DNA from: Sedimenticola sp.
Lineage (GTDB): Bacteria > Pseudomonadota > Gammaproteobacteria > Chromatiales > Chromatiaceae
Assembly: GCA_026994195.1 (NCBI GenBank)
Contig: JALWRH010000103.1
Coordinates: 1 to 42,398, forward strand
Direction: 5' to 3'
Length of the DNA stretch: 42,398 nt
Below, piece after piece: positions 20,476-38,562 of the stretch. Within the stretch, counting starts at the first letter, position 1. The number at the start of each line of letters is the position of its first letter. Made by a program: the position numbers and the translations under genes. The notes beneath the pieces are model-generated. The model saw only the letters and a program-made list of their open reading frames with translations, was not told where the DNA came from and did not search any database.

Positions 20476-21834
20476 TTAGATTCGTTTTATATAACTCTGA
20501 ATATGTTGGCTAAGGTCGATGTCGAACGAGCCGGCCCGGTGAGAAGTTTTAATGGCATAGGGCTTGCCGAGACTGTCTGCCGGGTTGGTGGTGAGATTGA
20601 TGATAGTGGGCTGACGCGGCTGTTTGTCATGATCCAGCAACAGTTTGATTTTAGGTCGCAGACGTTGCCTGGGGTTGTTGTCCACGACAATGCCCACTTC
20701 ACCATTGGTCATTTCGACCACCGTACCCAGAGGATAGGTGCCGATGGTCTGAATGAACTTGACCACCAGTGATTCATCGAAGGCGCTGCCGGCGTTCCTG
20801 TGTAGAATGCCCAGTGCGGTTTCCGCGGTCTCTCCCTGGCGGTAGATGCGATCTCCGGTAATGGCGTCATACACGTCGGCAATGGTCACTATGCGGGTAT
20901 ACAGGGGTATATCGTTGCCTGCGATCCCGAGGGGATAGCCTTCGCCATTGAGCCGCTCGTGGTGGCCAAAGGCTGTATCAATGACACTATCCATGACCTC
21001 CTGTGTATCAAGGAGGATTTCCCGTCCATCTGCGGGATGACGCTTCATGATTTCCATTTCGTCCTCGTTTAGCCTGCCTGGCTTGTTGAGGATGTCGAGA
21101 GGCGTGAGCATCTTTCCCATGTCATGCAACAGACCGCACAGTCCCACTACGTTTAGTTGCTTGCGATCCATGCCCAGATGCCGGCCAAAGGCAATGGAGA
21201 TGATGGCGACATTGAGACTGTGTTCTGACGTATACTCATCCCTGTTGCGCAAACGTGTAAGCAGCAGCCCGGCATCCTGATTCATCATCACGTTGTCCAC
21301 GCAGGCAGCCACGGCTTCTTTGGCGGCCGGAGTGTCGATACTTTTGCCCAGACGGATATCCTTCATGATGGTTTTAACCAGCCTGTTGGTGTGAACTCTG
21401 TTCTGCACCGAGGTCTTGAGCGCCTGAGGGAAGCTCTCATCTGGGCAGGGTCCATCCCCTCTTTTCAGAATCCGGCTGAAACTGCCCAAAAGTCCGCGAC
21501 CACTTTTGGGCGTTTCATTGCTGTCAACAGCTATGGCGCTGAAGCTAGGCTTGAACTGGGATTTTTCCGTGGATGCCGGTGTGGACAGGCTACCCGATTG
21601 GCCAGTTTTGGCATGCCGGGACTTCTTGACATCGATGTAGACCCATTTGCAGCAGTCCCGCACACGCATCACGTCTTCCGGGCTGTTGAGCATGAACCCC
21701 TGAAACACAAAGGGAGACTTTGTCCAGGGGCGGTCCAGCTCGCAGACAAACATTCCCTCTTGCAGCTTGTCTGCGTCTATTTGAACCTTTTCTATCTGCT
21801 CAAAGGCCAGGGGGTCAGAATCGTCTGTCATCAT
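20476..21834 (-). CDS. HD-GYP c-di-GMP phosphodiesterase with N-terminal DUF3391
   Basis: 452 residues. The N-terminal DUF3391 domain (about 12-75, VQIDADKLQEGMFVCELDRP) is followed by a linker and an HD-GYP domain (about 190-380). All catalytic motifs are present: HDMGK (237-241), HPADG (266-270), GHHERLNGEGYP (290-301) and IVTIADVYDAIT. A beta-rich C-terminal part (TNGEVGIVVDNNPRQRLRP) is typical of this subfamily. It should hydrolyse c-di-GMP to pGpG or GMP and so lower the signal. A GGDEF cyclase is encoded about 10 kb away in the borosin-like set, but nothing links the two directly. Confidence 0.93.
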   Translation of the reverse strand: MMTDDSDPLAFEQIEKVQIDADKLQEGMFVCELDRPWTKSPFVFQGFMLNSPEDVMRVRDCCKWVYIDVKKSRHAKTGQSGSLSTPASTEKSQFKPSFSAIAVDSNETPKSGRGLLGSFSRILKRGDGPCPDESFPQALKTSVQNRVHTNRLVKTIMKDIRLGKSIDTPAAKEAVAACVDNVMMNQDAGLLLTRLRNRDEYTSEHSLNVAIISIAFGRHLGMDRKQLNVVGLCGLLHDMGKMLTPLDILNKPGRLNEDEMEIMKRHPADGREILLDTQEVMDSVIDTAFGHHERLNGEGYPLGIAGNDIPLYTRIVTIADVYDAITGDRIYRQGETAETALGILHRNAGSAFDESLVVKFIQTIGTYPLGTVVEMTNGEVGIVVDNNPRQRLRPKIKLLLDHDKQPRQPTIINLTTNPADSLGKPYAIKTSHRAGSFDIDLSQHIQSYIKRI

Positions 21835-25724: not shown

Positions 25725-27757
25725 ACTGGCAGGACTTCCATTTCATTCGTCCCTGGTGGCTGTTGATGCTGGCGCCCCTGGCCTTTGGCCTGTTCCGGCT
25801 TTGGCGCCGGCAGGGCGTGGATTCCGCCTGGAGAAACGTGGTGGCTCCAGAATTGCTGCCCCATCTGCTCATGGAAGAAGAAGGCCGTCTGGCGCGCTGG
25901 CCTCTGGTCGTGGCCGGACTGGGTTTCACCATGGCAGTGCTGGCTATGGCGGGACCTGCCTGGGAGCGGCTGCCTCAGCCGGTGTTCAGCAAGACATCTT
26001 CTCTGGTCATCGCCCTGGACTTGTCCACGTCCATGAACGCCCGGGACCTCAAGCCCTCGCGGCTGCAGCAGGCGCGTTTCAAGGTGGAAGATATTCTCAA
26101 ACAGCGTAAGGAAGGGCAGACGGCCCTGATCGCCTTTGCCGGAGCGCCCTTCACCGTTTCGCCCCTCACGGACGATGCACGCACCATTATTGCCCAGTTG
26201 CCTGCCCTGACACCAGATATCATGCCCGTGCAAGGCAGCAACACGGCTGCCGCCATCAAACTGGGTGCCGAGTTGCTGCAACAGGCCGGACAGGCCAAAG
26301 GGAGGATACTGCTGGTCACGGATGGCGTGAACACCGCTGCCAGCGTGGAAGCGGCGCGTGAGGCGGCCAAGCATGGTTATCGTGTTTCGGTGCTGGGCGT
26401 GGGTACTGTGCAGGGCGCCCCCATTCCCACCCGGCAGGGTGTGATCAAAGATGCCAGGGGCAATATCGTCATCGCCAAGCTGGATACGGCTGCTTTGGAA
26501 GAAGTGGCCCGGGCCGGCCAGGGGCGTTTTGTACTCCTGAGCCTGGATGCATCCGATATTGCGGCACTGCACCTGGTGGATGACGACCACGATATGCAAT
26601 CTGCGTCCCGGGCATCAGATCAGGAAGTGGCGCGCTGGAAAGACATGGGGCCCTGGTTGTTGCTGGCAGTCCTGCCCCTGGCGGCTCTGGCATTCCGCCG
26701 TGGGGTGATGATCCTGGCTTTCATCATGGTTCTGCCTCTGCCGGACAGCGCCCAGGCGGGCTGGTGGTCAGATCTCTGGCAGCGTCCCGACCAGCAAGGC
26801 CAGGAATTGCTGTTGGATCAGCAGCAGCCGGAACAGGCGGCACAGGTTTTCCACGATCCTGACTGGAAGGCCAGTGCGCTCTACCGGGCGGGAAAATACC
26901 AGGAGGCGGAAAAGCTCTGGCAGCAGGAAGATACTGCGGAAGCCCGCTATAACCTGGGCAATGCCCTGGCCCGGGAGGGCAGGCTGAAAGAAGCCATCGA
27001 TGCGTATGAGCAGGTTCTGAAGAAGAATCCTGAACATCAGGATGCCAAGACCAATCTGGATCTGGTCAGGAAACTGCTTGAGAAACAGAAGCAAGAGCAG
27101 AAGAAAAAACAGCAGAACCAGAAAGGCCGGCAGGGCAAGAAGGATCAGCAGAATCAGAAAAGTCAGCAGAGCCAGAAGGATCAGCAGAGTCAGAAAGGTC
27201 AGCAGGGCCAGAAGGATCAGCAGAGTCAGAAAGGTCAGCAGGGCCAGAAGGATCAGAAGAATCAGAAAGGTCAGCAGGGCCAGAAGGATCAGAAGAATCA
27301 GAAAGGTCAGCAGGGCCAGAAAAATCAGCAGAAACAGAAGGGCCAACAGGGCCAGAAGGATCAGCAGAATCAGAAAGGCCAGCAGGCCAAGAAGGACGAG
27401 CAGAACCGGAAAGATCTGCAGGCAGATAAATCAGAGGCGCAAGGGGAAAAAGACAAGGAAGAACAAGCCCGGGCCCGGGCCAAGGCAGAAGCTGCCCGCA
27501 AAGAAGAAGAACGTAAGGCCGAGGAAGCTAGGAAGATGGCTGAGAAAAAGGAAAAACAGAAAGAATCGTCCAGGAAGCCCCAGGAAGCAGCCCAGGCTGC
27601 TCAGGCTTCTACAGAAAAACCCCTGGATGAGAAGGCGCTGTCCCGGGAGCAGTGGCTGAAACGCATTCCCGATGACCCCGGTGGCTTGTTGCGCCGTAAG
27701 TTCAGATACTACTATCAGAGAAAACACTATGATGTTCCAAAACAGCAACCCTGGTAA
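25721..27757 (+). CDS. batB: BatB/BatC fusion: VWA domain, TPR and Gln/Lys repeat region
   Basis: 678 residues. The N-terminal part is BatB-like: membrane segments at about 12-24 and 62-80, a VWA domain with MIDAS DLSTS (100-104), and two more membrane segments near 310-350. The C-terminal part is BatC-like: a TPR unit (ARYNLGNALAREGRLKEAID), then a long Gln/Lys/Gly region made of a 12-residue repeat (474-557), a Glu/Lys/Ala charged region predicted helical, and a basic C-terminus. BatB and BatC are separate genes in some bacteria and fused in others. The end overlaps the batD start by about 29 bases. Confidence 0.9.
   Translation: MNWQDFHFIRPWWLLMLAPLAFGLFRLWRRQGVDSAWRNVVAPELLPHLLMEEEGRLARWPLVVAGLGFTMAVLAMAGPAWERLPQPVFSKTSSLVIALDLSTSMNARDLKPSRLQQARFKVEDILKQRKEGQTALIAFAGAPFTVSPLTDDARTIIAQLPALTPDIMPVQGSNTAAAIKLGAELLQQAGQAKGRILLVTDGVNTAASVEAAREAAKHGYRVSVLGVGTVQGAPIPTRQGVIKDARGNIVIAKLDTAALEEVARAGQGRFVLLSLDASDIAALHLVDDDHDMQSASRASDQEVARWKDMGPWLLLAVLPLAALAFRRGVMILAFIMVLPLPDSAQAGWWSDLWQRPDQQGQELLLDQQQPEQAAQVFHDPDWKASALYRAGKYQEAEKLWQQEDTAEARYNLGNALAREGRLKEAIDAYEQVLKKNPEHQDAKTNLDLVRKLLEKQKQEQKKKQQNQKGRQGKKDQQNQKSQQSQKDQQSQKGQQGQKDQQSQKGQQGQKDQKNQKGQQGQKDQKNQKGQQGQKNQQKQKGQQGQKDQQNQKGQQAKKDEQNRKDLQADKSEAQGEKDKEEQARARAKAEAARKEEERKAEEARKMAEKKEKQKESSRKPQEAAQAAQASTEKPLDEKALSREQWLKRIPDDPGGLLRRKFRYYYQRKHYDVPKQQPW
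27140..27391 (+). repeat. Seven tandem 36-base coding repeats in the BatB/BatC gene
   Basis: Seven in-frame units of 36 bases encode 12 residues each. The consensus is KDQQSQKGQQGQ, with single-residue variants (QQNQ, QKNQ, QQKQ). Units 2 and 3 are almost identical in DNA. Degenerate copies flank the array on both sides. The array encodes a flexible, polar, basic linker. Because each unit keeps the frame, gain or loss of copies would be tolerated. Confidence 0.92.
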
Positions 27758-29561: not shown

Positions 29562-30270
29562 TCTGATCAAGCCCTGCAAAATACTCGCTGTTCTGTTCCT
29601 TTGCGTTCTGCCTTTGGTGGCAGCTGCCCAGTGGGAGCTGGAAAAAGACGAGCAGGGCATACGGGTGTACACAGAGGCCGTTCCGTCCTCTGATATCCGG
29701 CGCTTTCGCGTGGAAACCACCTTGCCGGTTCCCCTGGACCGGGTGTTGGCAGTGTTCGATGATTTCAAACGCTATCCCGAATGGAAATACAAAGTGAAGC
29801 ATTCCGGCGTCCTGGCTCAGCCTGAAGAGAATGCCTGGTACCACTACCAGGATCTTTCCATGCCTTTTCCTCTGGACGATCGTATGTTCGTCATGCGTTC
29901 CCAGCTGTTGCCCCAAGGGCCGAACCAGGTGGTTATTGAAACCCGCGCCGCGCCGGACTATTGCCGGGATCAGGCGTTGCCTGCCTGCAGTGGGGTCAAG
30001 ACTTTTGACGGCCTGATCGTGCGTGAGGCCCGCGGGCGGCACGAGATGAAGCAACTGGCGGACGGCAGTACCCATATCGTCTGGATACAACATGCCGAAC
30101 CCGGTGGGGTGCTTCCTGACTGGCTGGTGAATGCCATGCTGGTGGATGGCCCCTGGGAAACCTTCAAGGGGCTGCGCGCTTATGTGAATCAGCCCCGCTA
30201 CCGGGATGCCCGGCTCAGGCGCGATGCCTCGGGCGCTTTGCTGGGCGGGTTTGAAAAAGTTACCTGGTAG
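29554..30270 (+). CDS. Exported START-domain (lipid-binding fold) protein
   Basis: 238 residues from ATG 29554 (DNLIKPCKILAVLFLCVLP), which overlaps the batD stop by eight bases. A signal peptide with likely cleavage after VAAA (near residue 25) precedes a START-like domain: WELEKDEQGIRVYTEAV, VLAVFDDFKRYPEWKYKVKH and WIQHAEPGGVLPDWLVNAML. START domains bind lipids or other hydrophobic molecules; proteins of this kind are often annotated only by fold. The overlap with batD suggests it is expressed with the Bat operon, but it is not a usual Bat component. Confidence 0.85.
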   Translation: MDNLIKPCKILAVLFLCVLPLVAAAQWELEKDEQGIRVYTEAVPSSDIRRFRVETTLPVPLDRVLAVFDDFKRYPEWKYKVKHSGVLAQPEENAWYHYQDLSMPFPLDDRMFVMRSQLLPQGPNQVVIETRAAPDYCRDQALPACSGVKTFDGLIVREARGRHEMKQLADGSTHIVWIQHAEPGGVLPDWLVNAMLVDGPWETFKGLRAYVNQPRYRDARLRRDASGALLGGFEKVTW

Positions 30271-30311
30271 GCGAAAACAGGTTTTGGCTGGGCGGGCCGC
30301 CCGTAGTCTGC

Positions 30312-31097
30312 TCAGTTCAGATCGGACAGGCCGTATCCAAGAGCGCGCAGGACTTTCTTATCTGCCTGTGGCTTTCCTGTAGGCGGAATCACCAGGGTGG
30401 AGCTTTGTCCTGTCTCCTGCCGGGGCAGTTCGTGCAGGGGCAGCCGGTCGGTACGGGGCTGGTGAATGGCCAGCACTGGCGCTTCATAGAGGATGATCTC
30501 TGTATCCGGGGAGTACCAGCGATACAGTTTCTTCACCAGTATCTGGAGTCTTTCGGCGCTGGTGTCGAAGCGCTTGCCGCTCAGGTCGCCACACAGACCC
30601 ACTTGCCAGAGGATGAGCATGGCTGTGGGATCGATGTGACGGTCATAGATCAGGAACTGGGTGGTTTCCAGGGACAGGCAGCCCTGCCTGCCAGGGTCCA
30701 GGCCAAGATCGGCGATCAGGCAGTCCTCTGCTGATATTCCCGGTTCCATGCGGGCCGGATAGCCTTCGCTGCGCAGCCGGGCAATGGCGGCATGGGGTAC
30801 TTGGGCAAAAACGCCAGGATGCCCATAGAAAACCGCACATACGTTCTTGCCGCTGTGTACCGCTTCGACCAAGACCTCTTCCATTTCCCGGTAGGTCTGG
30901 CGCCTGTCCTTGCCATCATCGTAATAGATGTGCAGCGCCCGCACATCAGGACGCAGACTTTCCACCCAGCGATAGGCAAAGGCATCGGTCATGCAGAATA
31001 CCTGATTGGCAAGACGAATCTCGCTGATGGCGCGTTCATTGATATGGCGGCCCAGCTGAATGCCGGTGCCCACCACTACCAGGGATCCTTGTGTCAT
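30312..31097 (-). CDS. Borosin-type peptide alpha-N-methyltransferase (split borosin, SonM-like)
   Basis: 261 residues. This is a tetrapyrrole-methylase-fold SAM enzyme whose motifs match the catalytic domain of borosin N-methyltransferases, from memory of OphMA. GSLVVVGTGI lies at the N-terminus. YYDDGKDRRQTY (58-69) keeps the Tyr, Arg and Tyr that correspond to OphMA Tyr66, Arg72 and Tyr76. VFYGHPGVF (89-97), ARMEPGISAEDCLIADLGLDP and TAMLILWQVGLCGD follow. Borosin enzymes methylate backbone amides of a peptide; in split systems the precursor is a separate protein, and a candidate lies at 32882-33103. GAGG stands six bases before the ATG, which abuts the cyclase stop. Ordinary cobalamin or siroheme methylases lack the YYDxGK and FYGHPGVF combination. 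Confidence 0.88.
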   Translation of the reverse strand: MTQGSLVVVGTGIQLGRHINERAISEIRLANQVFCMTDAFAYRWVESLRPDVRALHIYYDDGKDRRQTYREMEEVLVEAVHSGKNVCAVFYGHPGVFAQVPHAAIARLRSEGYPARMEPGISAEDCLIADLGLDPGRQGCLSLETTQFLIYDRHIDPTAMLILWQVGLCGDLSGKRFDTSAERLQILVKKLYRWYSPDTEIILYEAPVLAIHQPRTDRLPLHELPRQETGQSSTLVIPPTGKPQADKKVLRALGYGLSDLN

Positions 31098-32843
31098 TCA
31101 GGCCTCTGTGGTTTCACTGCGGGGAACATGAGCCAGCACCTGGTTTCTGCCGTTGCGCTTGGCCTTGTACAGGGTTTCGTCGGCATCGCGTACCAGGGTG
31201 TCCAGGGTATTGTAGTCTCCCTGCGCCTGCGCCAGACCGTAGCTCAGGGTGACTTCGATGCTTTTGCCATAGTCCACGACCGGATGAATCTGGCGTCGGC
31301 AGTTTTCCACTAGCTGTCTGGCCTGGCTGATGTCCATGCCGGGAAGAAAACAGGTGAACTCCTCACCGCCGGTGCGGCCCACGATGCCATGTTTACCCAG
31401 GCAGTTTTTCAGTACCGCTGCAATATGCTGCAGCACTTTGTCGCCGGCAGCATGCCCATAGGTATCGTTGACGTACTTGAACCAGTCGATATCCGCTACC
31501 ACTACAGTAAAAGGTTTCTTGAGCCGGCGGCATTCATGGAAGCGTTCTTCCGCCAGGGAATAGCAATAGGCATGGTTGTAGAGATCCGTCAGAGGGTCGA
31601 CCTGGGACATGTGTTTGAAGTAACTGCGTTCGCGCTTGGCCTTCAGCCAGAGCAGTATGATGATCAGGGCAACGATGATCAGCCCCAGTATGGTAATCAG
31701 GGAGCGCTGATTGGCGTTTTTCTTCTGCAAAGCCAGAAGCCGGTTGTCCTGTATGAGTTGCTCAATATGCTCTTCTTTGTTCTTGACCTCGAATTCCACC
31801 TGAAGCTGGGCGATGCGGACGGTCTTGCGGTTGTCCATGACCTGGGCTTCAGCCGCCGATTTTTTCTTGTACCACTCCAGGGCGGAGTTGGCATCTCCCC
31901 GGTACATGGCCAGCTCGCTTTGCAGGGCATAGGCATCCGTATGTTGGGGCGATATGCCGGTACTCGCCAGCAGGGGCATGGCTTCATCAAGGTGGGACTG
32001 GGCCTGGTCGATGTGTCCCAGAGAGAAATGAACATTGGCCAGTTGCACCAGGATATAGGCGATGCCATAGCGGTAGCCACTATCTCTGACCAGCTTCAAG
32101 GCAGTTTCAAGCTCTTTCAGCGCCGCTTGGTGTTGCTTCTGCTTCTGCAGGCAGGTGCCCAGGCCTGCACGCGCCATGCCCTCGAACAGGGGGGCCGATG
32201 CGGTTTTGCAGTAGCGGATCATTTTGCGGTAGCTCTCGGCCGCCTTGCTGAATTCTTCCCTCCGAAGATAGGCGCCGGCAAGGTTGTCGTAGCTGCCGCA
32301 AAGATCGATAGGTGACCCTATGGCTTCCTCAGCACGTACGTCTTCCAGTGACAGTTCCAGAGCCTTGTCCAGATCGCCCGAATCGATATACAGCTCGGGC
32401 GCATTGCTGAGGGCGATGAGTTTCAGACTGGGATCTTTTATCCAGGGCAACAGCAGCTGGGTCTTGTTGAGGTATTTGAACCCGGAGATGTAGTCGCCCA
32501 ACATATGGTAGATAGGAATGGCAATGGTATATGCGCGAACTCTGTATTCAGGGGGGATGGAGGGACTGTCAAAATGCCGCAGGAGTTCAAGGGCATCTTC
32601 CATATCGCCCTGAATCGCATACAGGCGCATTTTCAGCAGGTCGATGGAGAGTTGTTGTTCCGGACTGGCATGGTCTTCCAGAGGAGTGAGCTGCTCAACC
32701 AGCCATTCCAGTTCCTTGGTCGGTTGTGAAGCAAAGGGATTGACGCCGTTGAGGATGTTTTCCAGTTTGCCGGCGTAACACATGCCTCCTGCATGTAACA
32801 GGAACAGGAGAACAGGCAGTAACTGGCGGCCAGGGTGTTTCAT
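31098..32843 (-). CDS. TPR-membrane-GGDEF diguanylate cyclase within the borosin-like set
   Basis: 581 residues from ATG 32843 (KHPGRQLLPVLLFLLHAGG); GTG 32852 is possible but its ribosome-binding site would be too close. A signal sequence leads into a periplasmic region of about six to eight TPR-like repeats (about 40-330), a coiled segment, one membrane helix (SLITILGLIIVALIIILLWL) and a cytoplasmic GGDEF domain. The active-site motif GGEEF and the DPLTDLYN and ADIDWFKYVNDTYGHAAGD segments are intact, so it should make c-di-GMP. The inhibitory RxxD site is absent (GKHG stands there). It lies between the precursor and the methyltransferase genes on the same strand, with gaps of 38 and 0 bases. 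Confidence 0.92.
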   Translation of the reverse strand: MKHPGRQLLPVLLFLLHAGGMCYAGKLENILNGVNPFASQPTKELEWLVEQLTPLEDHASPEQQLSIDLLKMRLYAIQGDMEDALELLRHFDSPSIPPEYRVRAYTIAIPIYHMLGDYISGFKYLNKTQLLLPWIKDPSLKLIALSNAPELYIDSGDLDKALELSLEDVRAEEAIGSPIDLCGSYDNLAGAYLRREEFSKAAESYRKMIRYCKTASAPLFEGMARAGLGTCLQKQKQHQAALKELETALKLVRDSGYRYGIAYILVQLANVHFSLGHIDQAQSHLDEAMPLLASTGISPQHTDAYALQSELAMYRGDANSALEWYKKKSAAEAQVMDNRKTVRIAQLQVEFEVKNKEEHIEQLIQDNRLLALQKKNANQRSLITILGLIIVALIIILLWLKAKRERSYFKHMSQVDPLTDLYNHAYCYSLAEERFHECRRLKKPFTVVVADIDWFKYVNDTYGHAAGDKVLQHIAAVLKNCLGKHGIVGRTGGEEFTCFLPGMDISQARQLVENCRRQIHPVVDYGKSIEVTLSYGLAQAQGDYNTLDTLVRDADETLYKAKRNGRNQVLAHVPRSETTEA

Positions 32844-32881
32844 GGGGGGCACTGACTCCTTGTCTGCCGGGTGATCCGAGT

Positions 32882-33103
32882 TCAGCGCTCAGGTGAGCGG
32901 ATGATAATGGTAATTTTCTTCAGAGAGTTGAGGCCGGTGGCTTTTTCCAGTGCTTTCAGGTCCGCCTCTTCCAGCAGTTTCATCTCCTCCGGAGAGAGTT
33001 TTGCGTCTTCCATGACCTTTTTCGGGTTGGTGGCATATGCCTTGGCCAGTTCGGCATCACTGCCCAAGCGTGTCATCAGTTTGATCAGATTGCTCATGGG
33101 CAT
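32882..33103 (-). CDS. Putative split-borosin precursor peptide (SonA-like)
   Basis: 73 residues. The start at 33103 has a strong AAGGAGG site eight bases upstream; a second ATG lies two codons later. Residues 5-58 form a helical domain (LIKLMTRLGSDAELAKAYAT, NPKKVMEDAKLSPEEMKLLE, EADLKALEKATG). It follows the same plan as SonA of Shewanella (LGxDAxL, then a YxxNPxxVM segment, then an L-rich helix pair). This fold relates to the LigA-type small subunit seen in borosin binding domains. The tail LKKITIIIRSPER (61-73) is short, beta-branched and polar at the end, as expected for a core; Ile/Thr 64-68 are the likely methylation sites. No cysteines occur. The link to the methyltransferase is inference from plan and neighbourhood. 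Confidence 0.8.
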   Translation of the reverse strand: MPMSNLIKLMTRLGSDAELAKAYATNPKKVMEDAKLSPEEMKLLEEADLKALEKATGLNSLKKITIIIRSPER

Positions 33104-33211
33104 CGTTTTCCCCTCCTTCAGCTTTATTGTGTTTTTTTACCTTGTCACTATCTCCAGTGCTTTGCAAGATGATTTCGCGGGTTGGGGTTGGGTCATGTAT
33201 GGTACAGCCTC

Positions 33212-33856
33212 ATGAATAAAAAGAAGCTGCTGATCATTGCTGCGACGGCTTCATTGGTGATCGCCGCGGCTGCGGGCCTATACTACTGGGACGTCATGGT
33301 GGTGGGTCTGCTGGCCGCACTTTTGTGGGCCAAAAAGCTCCTGACTCTCAAAGGCCTGTTGATCCTGTTGAAGAAACTGCCGTTTCTGCTGTTGCTGGGC
33401 CTGAAGCGCCTCATTATCAAGATCACCAGTCATTTTCTGTTTTTTACGGCCCACCTGCGCTTCCGGCGATTGCAGCGCCTGTTGCGCTACCTGCGGGCCC
33501 GGGCCTGGCTGGTAAAACGGCGCCTCAACACTCATTGGCAGGAACTCAGCGGGATGGAACAGTTGCTGGCCACGGTGGCGGCGCTGCCTCTGGTGGTGAT
33601 ACTTTCTGTGCTGATCGTGATCTATGTGTTGCCCAGGGCGGTGTTTGGCTTTCTCGGGGGTAAACTTAAGGAGCATTCCAGCGCGGCTGTACTCAAGAAA
33701 GCTGCCCAGCTCGGTGTGAAGGATAAACTGGTGGCGGCCGAAAAAAAGATCAAGGAAGGCATCCGGCGCAAGTTGCAGCGCCAGCGCAGTATCAGGCGGG
33801 ACGGGACCGATACAGAAGAAACAGAGGGGCAAAAAACCCCGCCCCCAGGTAGCTGA
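33212..33856 (+). CDS. Basic, Leu-rich membrane protein of unknown function
   Basis: 214 residues from ATG 33212 (NKKKLLIIAATASLVIAAAA). Two N-terminal hydrophobic stretches (about 5-40) are followed by a very basic helical region (KITSHFLFFTAHLRFRRLQR, LRYLRARAWLVKRRL), one more membrane helix (about 117-141) and a charged C-terminus. I recognise no family. It is divergent from the precursor peptide gene, with about 108 bases between the starts, and it overlaps the convergent MFS gene by 65 bases at its 3' end. The start is uncertain because no good ribosome-binding site is visible. Confidence 0.65.
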   Translation: MNKKKLLIIAATASLVIAAAAGLYYWDVMVVGLLAALLWAKKLLTLKGLLILLKKLPFLLLLGLKRLIIKITSHFLFFTAHLRFRRLQRLLRYLRARAWLVKRRLNTHWQELSGMEQLLATVAALPLVVILSVLIVIYVLPRAVFGFLGGKLKEHSSAAVLKKAAQLGVKDKLVAAEKKIKEGIRRKLQRQRSIRRDGTDTEETEGQKTPPPGS

Positions 33857-34961
33857 AGCGCAGCCATTCGCCGGAATGATCCTGGCTCAACGCAAACACC
33901 CCGGCGGCCAGGGAAAATCCCAGGGCGATGCTGAACTGGGAATAGTAGCTTTTCAGAAACAGGTAACGGTGGGCGGAGGTCTCCCGCGCCAGATCGAAAA
34001 AGCGCTTGTTGAAGGCCAGGCGGAAAAAGGATGTGCAGAAAGTGATAACCAGCAGTATGGCGAACAGCCATCCCAGAGGCAGATCCGCGTCCACAGTAGC
34101 GCGCATGAACCAGGACAGGCAATAGCCGGTGGCGGCAACGACATAGATGCGTTGTGCCGGCATATGGTCGATACGGTTCTTGATGATGTAGAACAGGGCG
34201 CTGAAGCTGGCTCCCAGAAAAATCACCAGCGCGCCGAGCTTCCAGAAGCTTTCATGGGCAAGAAGGAACAGGGTAATCACCCAGAAGTAACTTTCCAGGA
34301 ACAGAAATGGACCATCCAGAAGAAACACGGGCCGTGAACGATAAGGGTCTTTGAAAGCCAAAATGGCTTTCAGGCTCAGGGGGGCGTCCTGGCGCAACGC
34401 CGCAGGCAGCTCCATGGGCTCTTTGAGCAGGAAGAAGGAAATCATGCCCAGAAGGCCGATGAGGGAGGAGAGCAGAAATACGGACAGGTAACCGGCCTTG
34501 TCCAGAAGCAGGCCGCCGAAGAGTACGCCCATCTTGATGATGACCACCACAACCACCTGGAAATTGCCAAAGCGCCGGCCCGTGTCCTCATCTCCCAGGG
34601 TTTCGAAGAACAGCGCACGCTGGGTGATCCAGAAAAAGCAGTTGTAGGCGCCATTGAGCAGGGCGAACAGGGGCAGAAAGACCGGTTGCCCTTCCATGAA
34701 GATTGTGGCCAGGAGAGAGCTTTCCACCAGAAAGGAAGTCGCGATGAGGGTATTCAGGGGCAGGGTCTTGTGCATTCTGTCCCACAGCCACAAGGCCAGC
34801 AGGAAACCCGCGCCAGTGATGGCGATGAAGCTGCTGATCTGTGTAAGACTGTACCCATGCTTCCACAGGAAGACGGGAATGAAGAAAGGAAACAGCCCGA
34901 TGAGAAAGGAATGCAGGCCGAGAAAGCGGTAAAACAACTGTGTCGAACGGGACAGGGCCAT
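33792..34961 (-). CDS. Major facilitator superfamily transporter, last gene of the dioxygenase-ligase operon
   Basis: 389 residues from ATG 34961, which shares one base with the upstream ligase stop. About 12 membrane helices are visible: LIGLFPFFIPVFLWKHGY, IATSFLVESSLLATIFM, then VVVVIIKMGVLFGG, and a second half including FLDGPFLFLESYFWVITLFL-like helices. It looks like an MFS carrier, but I cannot name the substrate. Position after two ligases and a decarboxylase suggests export of the operon product. The 3' end overlaps the convergent membrane-protein gene by 65 bases, and both reading frames look intact. Confidence 0.85.
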   Translation of the reverse strand: MALSRSTQLFYRFLGLHSFLIGLFPFFIPVFLWKHGYSLTQISSFIAITGAGFLLALWLWDRMHKTLPLNTLIATSFLVESSLLATIFMEGQPVFLPLFALLNGAYNCFFWITQRALFFETLGDEDTGRRFGNFQVVVVVIIKMGVLFGGLLLDKAGYLSVFLLSSLIGLLGMISFFLLKEPMELPAALRQDAPLSLKAILAFKDPYRSRPVFLLDGPFLFLESYFWVITLFLLAHESFWKLGALVIFLGASFSALFYIIKNRIDHMPAQRIYVVAATGYCLSWFMRATVDADLPLGWLFAILLVITFCTSFFRLAFNKRFFDLARETSAHRYLFLKSYYSQFSIALGFSLAAGVFALSQDHSGEWLRFSYLGAGFFAPLFLLYRSRPA

Positions 34962-35869
34962 CAGAATATATCCTGGTTGTCGATGTGCAGCGCATCCAGG
35001 CGCCGGAAAGCCCGGCTCAAATCCTGTTTGCTGCCGAAGCGTGGCACGTCGTGCATGGCGGTGAAGGGCCGGGAGTTCACTTCCAGGAATATGCATTTCT
35101 GTGCGTTCCAGGGGGTTTCTATGCCTTCTTCCATAATGACGTCTATGCCCAGTATATTGGCATTGAACAGATCCAGTATCTTTTTGAACAACTGCTGATT
35201 GATCTCGGGAATGGTGCTGGTATCCACGGTTTCCACAACGCCGCCCGGGGCCAGGGATATGCGGTTGAACAGGGTTACTTCCTGGCCTTCCGGGGGCACG
35301 CTGTCCAGGCTCAGTCCCTGCTTGCGCAGATAGCGGCGGATGGCGCGGTTCTTGGGTATGGGGTGGATGACCGGGTAAAGGCCCATTTCCTTGCGGATAC
35401 GGTTTTCCGCGTCGATGAGCTGGCTGATGCTGGAGTGGCCATCGCCAGTGACGAAAGGGGGATAGCGGCGGATGACGGATATGATTTCCCCGTTACCCGC
35501 CAGCACCCGGTAGTTGCGCCCCTGCAGGTATTCCTCCACCACGGACCAGGGCCACCATATTTTTACCATCAGAGCGGCTTTCCACAGCTCGGCGAAACTG
35601 TTGATGGGAAAGTGGCTTCCCCGGGAGAAGCCGGAGACGTTGGGCTTGATCACCAGGGGAAAACCATGCGTTCTGGCAAAGCGGTGGGCACGCCAGGGGC
35701 TGAGAAAGATCTCTCCTTGGGCATGGGGTATGCCCTGGGCGGCGAACATCTCCCGGGCCTGTTCCTTGGAGCGGCAGCTCTTGCGCACCTCCAGGGGATT
35801 GTAGCTGCTGCATCCGTGCAGAAAGTGTTTGTCTATCCATCCGTAGATGATTTTTTTCAGGGCCTTCAT
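34961..35869 (-). CDS. ATP-grasp ligase of cyanophycin synthetase/GshF type
   Basis: 302 residues from ATG 35869 (KALKKIIYGWIDKHFLHGC), which overlaps the upstream ligase by four bases (ATGA). An ATP-grasp domain covers nearly the whole protein: FPLVIKPNVSGFSRGS with Lys75, then VEEYLQGRNYRVL (111-123), FVTGDGHSSISQLID (139-153), and metal-site residues in GIDVI (241-245) and EVNSRP (263-268). These match the ATP-grasp part of cyanophycin synthetase and GshF, without their other domains. Such enzymes form amide bonds through an acyl-phosphate. The acceptor and donor are not known here; context suggests an amino acid plus an amine. Confidence 0.86.
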   Translation of the reverse strand: MKALKKIIYGWIDKHFLHGCSSYNPLEVRKSCRSKEQAREMFAAQGIPHAQGEIFLSPWRAHRFARTHGFPLVIKPNVSGFSRGSHFPINSFAELWKAALMVKIWWPWSVVEEYLQGRNYRVLAGNGEIISVIRRYPPFVTGDGHSSISQLIDAENRIRKEMGLYPVIHPIPKNRAIRRYLRKQGLSLDSVPPEGQEVTLFNRISLAPGGVVETVDTSTIPEINQQLFKKILDLFNANILGIDVIMEEGIETPWNAQKCIFLEVNSRPFTAMHDVPRFGSKQDLSRAFRRLDALHIDNQDIF

Positions 35870-36672
35870 GGCTTGATCCGGTAGTTGAGAAAGAACATGG
35901 GCCAGAAGATGCGTTTCCTCTTCTGGTCGGAAGGCAGTGCCAGGGTCAGTTCTGCCAGGGCTTTCATTGCCTTGCGGATGAAATCGTGGCGCTGTTTCAG
36001 GGGAATGTCTTCGTCCAGCAGCATCAGGGGCATGGGGACGAACAGATTGATCTCGATGATGCGAAAATGGCCATCGAGCATGGCTTCCAAAGATTCTGCG
36101 CGCACCCCCACCCGGGCGATGCGAAAGGGAGGCAGTTGGCTCATATAACGCCACAATTGCCGCTCCTGTTGCGGCGACAGGGGCAGGGCGGTGTGCCGGG
36201 TGTCCGGGTTGAGGATGCTGTTTACCGGCCAGTCGTCCCCGCCAAGATTCCGGGTTTCCGTCAGGGAGAGCACGGCGAACCGGGTCGGATCGGCAGCGCT
36301 GCGGATATAGAATATCTCGAATTCATGTTGGCCGGGGGCGGCTTCCTGTACCAGATAGGGTATGGGTTGTTGCAGCAATGCTTGGCGCAGGCGCTCCCAT
36401 TCGGCGTTGTTCCGGGCCACAGCGATGCCCTTGGCATTCTGGCCCCATTCGGGCTTGAGGAATACGGGCCAGTGCCGGGGCTGCTTCAGTTCAGCCAGGG
36501 GAGTCTGGCGCAGACGCCAGGCTTCCGGTATGAGCTGATCCATCTCTGCTTTGGAGAACAGGCGCCGCCGCGCGTTGAACCAGGGAGCATTGAGCTGAAA
36601 ATAGTTCCAGGGCCGCGCGCCCAGGCGCAGGCACCAGCCCATATAGCCGAGTACGAGACGGACACGCAGCAT
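35866..36672 (-). CDS. Second ATP-grasp-fold ligase, divergent type
   Basis: 268 residues. ATP-grasp elements are visible but not of a family I can name: WPVFLKPEWGQNAKGIAVA with Lys73, PYLVQEAAPGQHEFEIFYI with Glu110, and RIARVGVRAESLEAMLDGHF leading to IEINLFVPMPLM with Glu207 and Asn209. These correspond to the ATP, substrate and magnesium sites of D-Ala-D-Ala ligase-like enzymes. The N-terminal 60 residues are hydrophobic and basic and may carry a different subdomain. It shares one base with the dioxygenase stop and overlaps the next ligase by four, so it is clearly in the operon. Confidence 0.78.
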   Translation of the reverse strand: MLRVRLVLGYMGWCLRLGARPWNYFQLNAPWFNARRRLFSKAEMDQLIPEAWRLRQTPLAELKQPRHWPVFLKPEWGQNAKGIAVARNNAEWERLRQALLQQPIPYLVQEAAPGQHEFEIFYIRSAADPTRFAVLSLTETRNLGGDDWPVNSILNPDTRHTALPLSPQQERQLWRYMSQLPPFRIARVGVRAESLEAMLDGHFRIIEINLFVPMPLMLLDEDIPLKQRHDFIRKAMKALAELTLALPSDQKRKRIFWPMFFLNYRIKP

Positions 36673-37163
36673 CAGTCGAAACAGATTCCCTTGAGGGCGT
36701 CGTCAGAATAGATGTGCAGGCTGAGGCTGGGCTGCAGGGCCGTGACCCGATGAATAGCGTTGTCATAGCAGCCTTCTCTGCCTGCGGCGTAAATGTGTTC
36801 GCCGGTGTGTTTCACCAGGGTTTCGGTGAGGTGCAGACCGTTTGGGGTGTCTGTGAAGTGTTCCATCTGCAGACAGCCCTGAAGCACCATGACGAAAGCA
36901 TATTGGGGGTGTCCGTGGGTGGGGGTTCTGGCGCCCACGTCCCAGCGCGCCACCATGATCTCTGCGCCTTCTGGATGACGGTAGAGGATGGAGCGGGAAT
37001 AGCAGTGCGGGGCATGAGGATAGTCGCCTTGCGCCTCAAAGTCTGCCGCCAGGCTCACAAGGCTGGTTTCATCGTCCAGGTGGCAGGCCATCGCTTCCAG
37101 CAGTTGCTGTTGCCGGGGAGAAAGGGCCGGGGAGGGCCAGGTTTTTGCCTTACAGTCATTCAT
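36672..37163 (-). CDS. Arg-type cysteine dioxygenase-family cupin
   Basis: 163 residues from ATG 37163, which overlaps the decarboxylase stop by eight bases. The cupin iron ligands are His83 and His85 (TPTHGHPQYAF) and His138 (AIHRV). Arg57 in CYSRS corresponds to the cysteine-binding Arg60 of mammalian enzymes, and SLHIYS (148-153) matches the conserved SLHLYS motif. The Cys-Tyr crosslink cysteine of mammals is absent, as in other bacterial forms. The family oxidises cysteine to cysteine sulfinic acid. Its gene directly follows a sulfinate-type decarboxylase, which fits a hypotaurine route. Other thiol substrates remain possible. Confidence 0.85.
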   Translation of the reverse strand: MNDCKAKTWPSPALSPRQQQLLEAMACHLDDETSLVSLAADFEAQGDYPHAPHCYSRSILYRHPEGAEIMVARWDVGARTPTHGHPQYAFVMVLQGCLQMEHFTDTPNGLHLTETLVKHTGEHIYAAGREGCYDNAIHRVTALQPSLSLHIYSDDALKGICFD

Positions 37164-38562
37164 GCAGCAGGCGCGCCCCCATGTCGATGACAGATTGCAG
37201 AAACCGGTCCACATCCTCCTCGCGGAAATCCGGGTGGGTGATGAGCAGGCGCAGGGTAAGAGTGTTCCCAATAAAGGCCACGCCCACCAGACTTATTCCT
37301 TCTTCGAACAGGCGATGGCGCAGTTTGAGATTGAAATCATTGGCGTCCATGCCGCTGGGAGGAAGGAAGCGGAAACAGACGTTGAAGGACTCCCGGGAGG
37401 CGGTCATCTCCAGCTGTGGCAGAGATTCGATGCGGGATTCTGCATATTCGCACAAGGCAAGGTAATGGCGCACGCGCTGTGCCAGACCTTCGCGACCATA
37501 ATATTTCCAGTCCAGAAACCACTTGAGGCTGTCCACCCGGCGACCGCATTGCAAAGAGGCGGTGCCGGTATCCAGTTCCGCATCCTCGTGCTCTTCGCGG
37601 AACAGGTAACTGTGTTCCCCGGCAGAGCAGGCGCAGCGCAGGGTGCCCTTGTGGTGATTGAACAGCAACAGGTTGCACATGAGGTTGCTGCCCGGCATCT
37701 TGTGAAAGTCCCAGGTGAAAGAGTCCAGCTGCTCCACGCCGGGCAGGTAGCGTTGGCGCAGTTCATCGTCCAGGAGTGCGGCACCGCCCCAGGCGCCGTC
37801 GCCGTGGAGCCAGAAGCCATGTTCCTTGCGCAGTTCCAGTAAAGGCGGGAGGGGGTCGTAGGCGCCGCGCACTGTAGTGCCCAGGGTGGCGCAGACGAAG
37901 AAAGCTTTGCGGCCCTGGGCCTGCTGTTCCTCCAGCAGTTGCTCCAGGCTGTCCGGGCGCATGCGCCCCCGCTCATCCACGGGCACCTTGATCAGGTTGT
38001 CCGTGCCCAGGCCCAGTATGTTGGCGGCTTTGTCCAGAGAGTAGTGGGCATCGGCGGAGACGAAAGCCGTCAAGGATGGTCCATTGAACAAACCTTTTTC
38101 CTTGGCTTCAGAAGCTGCCTGGTTGCGCGCAGCGAGCATGGCGATCATGTTGCCGTTGCTCGATCCCGTGGTCATCTGGCCTTCGCCTTGCCTGAAACCC
38201 ACCAGCTCCAGCATGCGGTTCAGCATGTAATGTTCCATGAGGGTGGATACGGGGGCAGCCTCATAGGTGCAGGCTGATGTATTGGTTACCGCGGTGATGA
38301 TCTCCCCCATGATGGAGGGGAGGTTGGCTCCGGACCACATGCGGTTGACGAAACCGTGGTTGCCGGTTTTTACTGAATGGGTCAGGTATTTTTCCATCCA
38401 CTGGAAGAGCTGCTGCCAGTCGCCGGGCGCCTGACGTTCCAGTTCCAGGGTTTCGGCCAGAGCCTGGGGTTCAAGGTAATCCAGGAACTTCCCCTCTTTG
38501 CGCCGGGCGTAGTACTGCTCCACCAGGGCCAGCAGGCGCTGGAATATGGCTTGGTCGTTCAT
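37156..38562 (-). CDS. PLP-dependent group II decarboxylase, candidate cysteine sulfinate decarboxylase
   Basis: 468 residues. The glutamate/cysteine sulfinate/aspartate decarboxylase fold is complete. PLP phosphate-binding TTGSSNGN (131-138), the PLP-stacking His173 in SADAHYSLDKAA, Asp255 in HGDGAWGG, and the Schiff-base Lys288 in WDFHKMPGSNLMC are all visible. Sequence reading alone does not separate Glu, Asp, cysteine sulfinate or aromatic substrates. The adjacent cysteine dioxygenase gene, overlapping by eight bases, makes cysteine sulfinate the best guess and hypotaurine the product. It follows a small membrane-protein gene by four bases and leads the ligases and transporter. Confidence 0.88.
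   Translation of the reverse strand: MNDQAIFQRLLALVEQYYARRKEGKFLDYLEPQALAETLELERQAPGDWQQLFQWMEKYLTHSVKTGNHGFVNRMWSGANLPSIMGEIITAVTNTSACTYEAAPVSTLMEHYMLNRMLELVGFRQGEGQMTTGSSNGNMIAMLAARNQAASEAKEKGLFNGPSLTAFVSADAHYSLDKAANILGLGTDNLIKVPVDERGRMRPDSLEQLLEEQQAQGRKAFFVCATLGTTVRGAYDPLPPLLELRKEHGFWLHGDGAWGGAALLDDELRQRYLPGVEQLDSFTWDFHKMPGSNLMCNLLLFNHHKGTLRCACSAGEHSYLFREEHEDAELDTGTASLQCGRRVDSLKWFLDWKYYGREGLAQRVRHYLALCEYAESRIESLPQLEMTASRESFNVCFRFLPPSGMDANDFNLKLRHRLFEEGISLVGVAFIGNTLTLRLLITHPDFREEDVDRFLQSVIDMGARLLHE

Follow-up and report, generated by a model that had tools for sequence, protein, structure and literature searches.

The stretch of DNA analysed here (the window: all 42,398 nucleotides of contig JALWRH010000103.1 of Sedimenticola sp., assembly GCA_026994195.1) carries on its minus strand an operon of three consecutive genes encoding, in this order, a small precursor peptide of the borosin type, a sensor protein with TPR and GGDEF domains, and a borosin-type peptide methyltransferase (Table 1). 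An earlier note on this DNA had described a set of two genes. Its enzyme and its precursor stand, at the coordinates given there, but the 584-codon gene lying between them had been overlooked and the set comprises three genes. The precursor and sensor genes are separated by 29 bases and there is no gap between sensor and methyltransferase, the stop codon of the former abutting the start of the latter (TGAATG). A purine-rich site precedes the start codons of both precursor and sensor. A scan of positions 30100-33400 for sigma-70 promoters returned 0 sites, with 1.5 expected, and a terminator scan at the operon gave nothing informative. The host genome (3.0 Mb in 126 contigs) contains one borosin-type methyltransferase.

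Table 1. Features of the borosin operon, with positions in the window and the evidence for each.
Feature	Position	Strand	Evidence
Ribosome-binding site of the precursor gene (GGAGGGG)	33110..33116	-	Sequence; six bases 5' of the ATG
Borosin precursor, 73 aa (71 aa from the second ATG, 33097); binding domain, residues 4-56	32882..33103	-	SonA, E 3.7e-5; five helices predicted; relatives in the genus
Predicted core, residues 62-73 (KKITIIIRSPER)	32885..32920	-	Ungapped phmmer alignment with SonA
Sensor, 584 aa, GTG start: signal peptide, TPR domain, membrane helix, GGEEF diguanylate cyclase domain	31098..32852	-	Pfam GGDEF 2.9e-39 and TPR models; AlphaFold pLDDT 89.4
Sensor, TPR domain (residues 45-317; contains C185 and C215; periplasmic by prediction)	31902..32720	-	Helices in the AlphaFold model
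Sensor, GGDEF domain (residues 417-571; motif GGEEF; RxxD inhibitory site absent)	31140..31604	-	Pfam; alignment
Borosin alpha-N-methyltransferase, 261 aa	30312..31097	-	SonM, E 1.3e-69; Y59/R65/Y69; Pfam TP_methylase 2e-19

The last gene almost certainly encodes a peptide backbone N-methyltransferase of the borosin type, an activity predicted from its homologies. SonM of Shewanella oneidensis, which it matches over its whole length, is its best solved relative, and the fused fungal borosins OphMA, dbOphMA and MroMA are matched with E values of 3e-43 to 1e-52. The motifs that the earlier note had listed (YYDDGKDRRQTY, FYGHPGVF, PGISAEDCLIADL and LILWQVG) are all found in the translation. The catalytic Tyr/Arg/Tyr residues align with Y58, R67 and Y71 of SonM and are conserved in 112, 112 and 111, respectively, of 113 aligned enzymes.

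The precursor has the SonA-like binding-domain plan, the short tail KKITIIIRSPER and the ribosome-binding site that had been attributed to it; the tail is hydrophobic. In the search that gave the match to SonA, two designed TPR-like repeat proteins reached similar E values (5.7e-5 and 6.2e-5, no single stretch passing), so that the relatives of the peptide within the genus are the stronger evidence: these lie at five places in four other genomes, with 53-60% identity, and four of the five stand beside a methyltransferase gene. Because the second ATG matches the start of these relatives (MSxL), the peptide may be 71 residues long. An AlphaFold model built from 25 sequences (predicted local distance difference test, pLDDT, 72) places five helices in residues 4-56, the helical binding domain that the note had anticipated, and the first 19 Foldseek matches of this model are all SonA chains, with query TM-scores of 0.55-0.66, probabilities of 0.77-1.00 and E values of 0.27 or worse. 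SonA is methylated at L63 and I65, according to Miller et al. (PMC8429565), and these residues align without gaps with T65 and I67 of the precursor, which makes the range of residues 64-68 proposed for methylation in the note a sensible one.

Pfam labels alone would suggest a tetrapyrrole methylase (TP_methylase, 2e-19) beside a stray LigA-like protein (LigA, 0.013), a view to which we give practically no weight. Profiles of cobalamin and siroheme methylases score the enzyme at 12-17 bits and the YabN profile scores it at 33 bits, with cut-offs of 160-525 (the best NCBIfam tetrapyrrole scores are 33 bits for a cut-off of 525 and 17 bits for one of 391), and the matches to SonM and OphMA far exceed every one of them. 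Judged by these profiles and not by a tree, the enzyme is no tetrapyrrole methylase; grouping with those enzymes was one of the outcomes that the note had named as speaking against its reading. On the side of the peptide, LigA (PF07746) reaches 16 bits, below its gathering score of 25.3, and the NHLP/Os1348 precursor family (NF038399) 24 bits, below 40.

The protein encoded between the two has hydrophobic stretches at residues 11-27, the N-terminus, and 385-401; both are present in 84 of 95 sensor relatives at the threshold chosen. By the usual topology the TPR domain is predicted to be periplasmic and the cyclase cytoplasmic. The GGEEF motif and the Pfam match identify a putative diguanylate cyclase, the enzyme that makes cyclic di-GMP (c-di-GMP), and GGEEF or GGDEF is kept in 92 of the 95 relatives. 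The cysteine pair of the TPR domain is found in 104 of 116 aligned TPR proteins. The host genome has a second, more distant TPR-GGDEF protein (G000:C71:4135-5199, L190; 106 bits), upstream of which no precursor was seen.

As a borosin, the locus is almost certainly of a known kind, type IV, in which the precursor is encoded separately and nearby, here in an open reading frame two genes upstream of the enzyme. As the note had proposed, it is a split system whose methyltransferase and precursor have SonM and SonA, respectively, as their nearest solved structures, unlike OphMA and the other fungal borosins, where a homologous methyltransferase and the precursor form one protein. SonM/SonA (PMC8429565) likewise comprises a separate enzyme and a precursor of about 71 residues with a five-helix binding domain. 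The two enzymes are 47% identical and have the same catalytic residues, whereas the cores differ (IIIRSPER here, LVISHGNGD in SonA), as does the gene order, which is precursor-sensor-enzyme here and enzyme-precursor-sensor there. The statement that such systems are known from few bacteria turned out to be wrong: tblastn confirmed at least 545 methyltransferase places in a scan of 84,980 species genomes, and the enzyme is carried by 59 of the 69 genomes sampled from the genus of SonM. In even draws that included the host genome, a match at E<=1e-12 was present in 10 of the 369 genomes drawn from the class and in 15 of the 398 drawn from the phylum. As a borosin, therefore, the locus is one among hundreds.

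What does a predicted diguanylate cyclase do between a borosin precursor and its enzyme? In the best 80 of the at least 545 places, which are thus the loci most similar to ours, a TPR/GGDEF sensor gene belongs to the cluster 78 times, and at 77 it lies on the same strand within 1.2 kb of the enzyme; at L098 it stands behind three precursors. At the other two loci (L043, L057) the contig starts inside the frame of the enzyme. The match to the sensor is partial at L025, L060 and L083, where contigs end, and covers GGDEF only at L092. As a background, the 1.16 Mb of these loci contain 7 other GGDEF-only open reading frames. A precursor was recognised by profile in 73 of the 80, and short candidates were seen by eye at L069 and L097. 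The genes come in three orders: precursor-sensor-enzyme, as in the window, at 15 loci (including L087, with no precursor seen, and the truncated L025); precursor followed by a sensor-enzyme fusion at 26; and enzyme-precursor-sensor at 36, plus L098. In the fused loci of Luteimonas and other Lysobacterales (e.g. L034, L054) the precursor is likewise followed by TPR-GGDEF and the core I-x-A-Y-D is conserved, but the methyltransferase is, unlike here, the C-terminal domain of the sensor protein. Whatever the position of the enzyme, precursor and sensor remain neighbours: 82 pairs, sought within 400 bases, have a median gap of 12 bases, and in 79 the gap is 100 bases or less. Loci with this association come from Sedimenticolaceae, Wenzhouxiangellaceae, Lysobacteraceae, Rhodanobacteraceae, Shewanellaceae, Alteromonadaceae and further groups, with differing flanks. 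Of 15 genomes of the host genus, 5 contain the sensor (E<=1e-60), and these 5 are also the ones with the precursor; in a sixth, which has the enzyme, the contig starts inside the sensor gene. The SonM system itself fits this arrangement. The enzyme of genome G1009 shows full identity with SonM across 261 residues; it is followed by a 71-residue precursor with the SonA sequence as far as compared, and at the base after the SonA stop a 596-residue TPR-GGDEF gene begins. Of the 82 matches in this genus, 30 loci were examined: all have the precursor and 29 the sensor, and at the remaining one (L209) the short stretch available contains a second enzyme-like piece and a second precursor.

Since the 80 loci are the most similar ones, 23 places from the even draws, the host's own left out, were also examined. 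A sensor is found at 16 of them (12 with GGDEF, three with kinase only and one with both), one of which (L144) has an enzyme identical to that of L096 among the 80. Conversely, when the same 398 genomes were searched with the TPR profile and up to five candidates in each were scored, 17 sensor sites above 160 bits emerged in 12 genomes, 11 of which have the enzyme; a precursor lies directly upstream at 13 of these sites by profile and at one more by eye. Precursor and sensor also multiply together, in tandem pairs under one enzyme (L065, L081, L082, L085, L091, L098), and occur as pairs with no enzyme nearby (L020, L167), the enzyme lying about 88 kb away in genome G769 and about 735 kb away in G163. 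In the latter (L020:8228-10292), precursor and sensor remain at the syntenic place, where only a 21-residue remnant of the methyltransferase aligns, and a complete second operon lies elsewhere (L019). The output domain can be exchanged: at L134, L136, L150 and L155 a TPR hybrid histidine kinase takes the place of GGDEF, L134 keeping a TPR-GGDEF protein as well. The kinases of L136, L150 and L155 have one or two receiver domains, and two of them an Hpt domain; they are possibly a phosphorelay version of the borosin module. In Rhodanobacter-type loci the TPR parts of four sensors form a clade with 100/100 support, and all four follow FCCLI(N/S/H)PAKP cores although one stands last rather than first in its operon, so this clade tracks the type of core and not operon position. 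A second type of core is seen in Dyella and Rhodanobacter loci (L066, L081, L085, L091, L098 and others), with a short hydrophobic, often Cys-containing stretch and then a long acidic tail. In the group of the window (n=42) the core is conserved in its pattern T (31), N (32), I/V (42), A (30), Y (34), then D/E (34); the window's own core departs from it, with I-T and S-P instead of T-N and A-Y. Taken as gene content, these data argue for a strong coupling of sensor and borosin, with the association of precursor and TPR sensor constant among the close relatives.

TPR domains that bind signal peptides are known, the Rap/Phr systems being an example. We slightly favour the reading that the operon works as a peptide-signal module, in which the enzyme methylates, the TPR sensor reads and c-di-GMP is the output. 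The N-terminal helical domain of the precursor would dock on the methyltransferase, which would N-methylate one or two backbone amides of the core, most likely those of T65 and I67. The core would be cut off by some protease and reach the periplasm, and N-methylation may help it to resist proteases and to cross the membrane. There it would bind the TPR domain of the co-encoded sensor and raise or lower the activity of the GGDEF domain in the cytoplasm; c-di-GMP would thereby report the peptide. That the TPR domain is the receptor is suggested by the exchange of outputs, the joint multiplication of precursor and sensor, the TPR clade that tracks a core type, and the conserved core. A broader version, held more tentatively and at somewhat less than even chances, is that the type IV borosins of gammaproteobacteria, SonM/SonA included, are backbone-methylated peptide signals, each precursor having its own periplasmic TPR receptor with c-di-GMP or, after domain exchange, a phosphorelay as output.

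Several observations weigh against this signal-module reading. Beside the operon neither an exporter nor a protease was found. The sensor is not part of borosins in general, since it is absent at 7 of the 23 sampled places, those with the weakest enzyme scores, and four plasmid loci from distant bacteria revealed none by these profiles; the more distant enzymes thus do without it. At one of these plasmid loci a prolyl oligopeptidase gene lies nearby. In the search from the sensor side, one genome (G843) has a sensor with no methyltransferase detected, and 3 of the 17 strong sites have no visible precursor. Three of the four hybrid kinases (L136, L150, L155) have more divergent TPR domains, without the cysteine pair. 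A mirror-tree comparison gave a mixed result. It used 42 pairs of the window's group and 37 of the methyltransferase-first group, after removal of rows in which no GGDEF motif could be recognised, of L025-L027 and, where a sensor had a second precursor, of that precursor (for the ingroup methyltransferase tree, L020, L026, L027 and fragments under 150 residues were left out). Core distances follow TPR distances beyond the GGDEF phylogeny in the methyltransferase-first group (partial r 0.43, p 0.0005) but not in that of the window (partial r 0.01, p 0.43), whose core hardly varies. The binding domain, which is not expected to touch a receptor, follows the TPR domain in both (0.37 and 0.45), and linkage alone would make the phylogenies of precursor and sensor agree.

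Could the sensor instead be a regulator of an ordinary split borosin product, such as a metallophore or a toxin, its TPR domain reading another cue and c-di-GMP tuning production, the peptide being no ligand? Co-transcribed regulators are common, and fungal members of the class give bioactive products (PMC8429565), which makes this a serious competitor, though one we consider distinctly less probable. A production regulator would have no need to be copied with every precursor or to accompany the precursor instead of the enzyme, and the core in the window's group is as conserved as a signal would be. The fusion of the enzyme to the GGDEF end of the sensor in 26 of the 80 loci would fit another explanation, an intracellular coupling in which binding of the precursor to a dimeric methyltransferase holds or releases GGDEF dimers and the enzyme reports the precursor load to the cyclase; SonM is indeed a homodimer (PMC8429565). 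We regard this as improbable, because it leaves unaccounted for the retention of the TPR sensor where the enzyme is a separate protein or has no gene nearby, and where a kinase provides the output. That the sensor gene has nothing to do with its neighbours and stays there by synteny would agree with the conservation of much of the flanking gene order within the genus, but is very hard to reconcile with an association that extends over several families with different flanks, three gene orders and fusions, and with the second complete set elsewhere in genome G163; we hold it for very improbable.

If the broader version of the signal reading is right, an N-methylated ribosomal peptide would gain a signalling role and the wide retention of these genes would be explained; if the peptide is the ligand, this would be peptide-to-c-di-GMP signalling with a backbone-methylated messenger. 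The association suggests that such peptides act as signals and not just as poisons or metal binders, and a sensor found fused to the enzyme, duplicated along with the precursor and able to swap its output makes the purpose of bacterial borosins directly testable in a laboratory strain. With the Gram-positive Rap/Phr-type receptors the likeness is that a TPR domain is proposed to read a peptide encoded by a neighbouring gene; it comes from the domain plan only, and those receptors are cytoplasmic whereas this TPR domain is predicted to be periplasmic and to drive a GGDEF domain. Receptors of the RRNPP type are cytoplasmic TPR proteins that bind the mature peptide, and therefore the sensor, with its predicted topology and output, at most works like one. 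In RcbA/RcbB of Vibrio vulnificus (PMC12282931), TPR likewise controls the cyclase in a TPR-GGDEF protein, but this is predicted to be cytoplasmic and has a TPR protein as partner, and the accessible part of that article mentions no borosin genes. Part of the sensor link is already in print, since the legend of a figure of borosin architectures in PMC11395268 names a GGDEF domain. The main text of PMC8429565 contains neither "GGDEF" nor "signal" (0 times each), and our literature search, whose coverage of key borosin papers is incomplete, found no paper with both "borosin" and "diguanylate cyclase". The signalling reading was not found in the literature searched, though key papers beyond that coverage may already contain it.

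How might the core be released? The earlier note had seen no protease, which holds for the surroundings of this operon but not for all its relatives: an aspartic-protease-like gene lies just upstream at 7 of the 80 loci, all in enzyme-first order. These pepsin-like proteases (L064, L067, L069, L074, L092, L102, L103) often occur with a GNAT acetyltransferase, which recurs near the enzyme at 13 loci and, like the protease, only in enzyme-first order; confirmation by Pfam covered 3 of each. They are candidates for the leader peptidase and a terminal modifier, respectively, of enzyme-first borosins. ABC transporters occur at 11 of the 80 loci at scattered distances, and no protease or exporter common to all 80 was found. 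A search for the aspartic protease family in the 15 genomes of the genus gave no match, its positive control likewise remaining without one.

Next to the operon, at 33792-38562 on the minus strand, genes for a pyridoxal phosphate (PLP)-dependent decarboxylase, a cupin-like protein, two ATP-grasp-like proteins and a major facilitator superfamily (MFS) transporter form what looks like a separate small biosynthetic cluster. Its order is kept beside the borosin operon in L017, L018 and L020; L016 lacks the ATP-grasp and MFS genes. At 10 kb from the sensor, an HD-domain protein with DUF3391 (20476-21834, minus strand) is encoded, which we take to be a likely c-di-GMP phosphodiesterase. Finally, positions 26950-27500 on the plus strand hold K/Q-rich low-complexity repeats, which lie in the C-terminal part of a VWA-TPR (BatB-like) protein.

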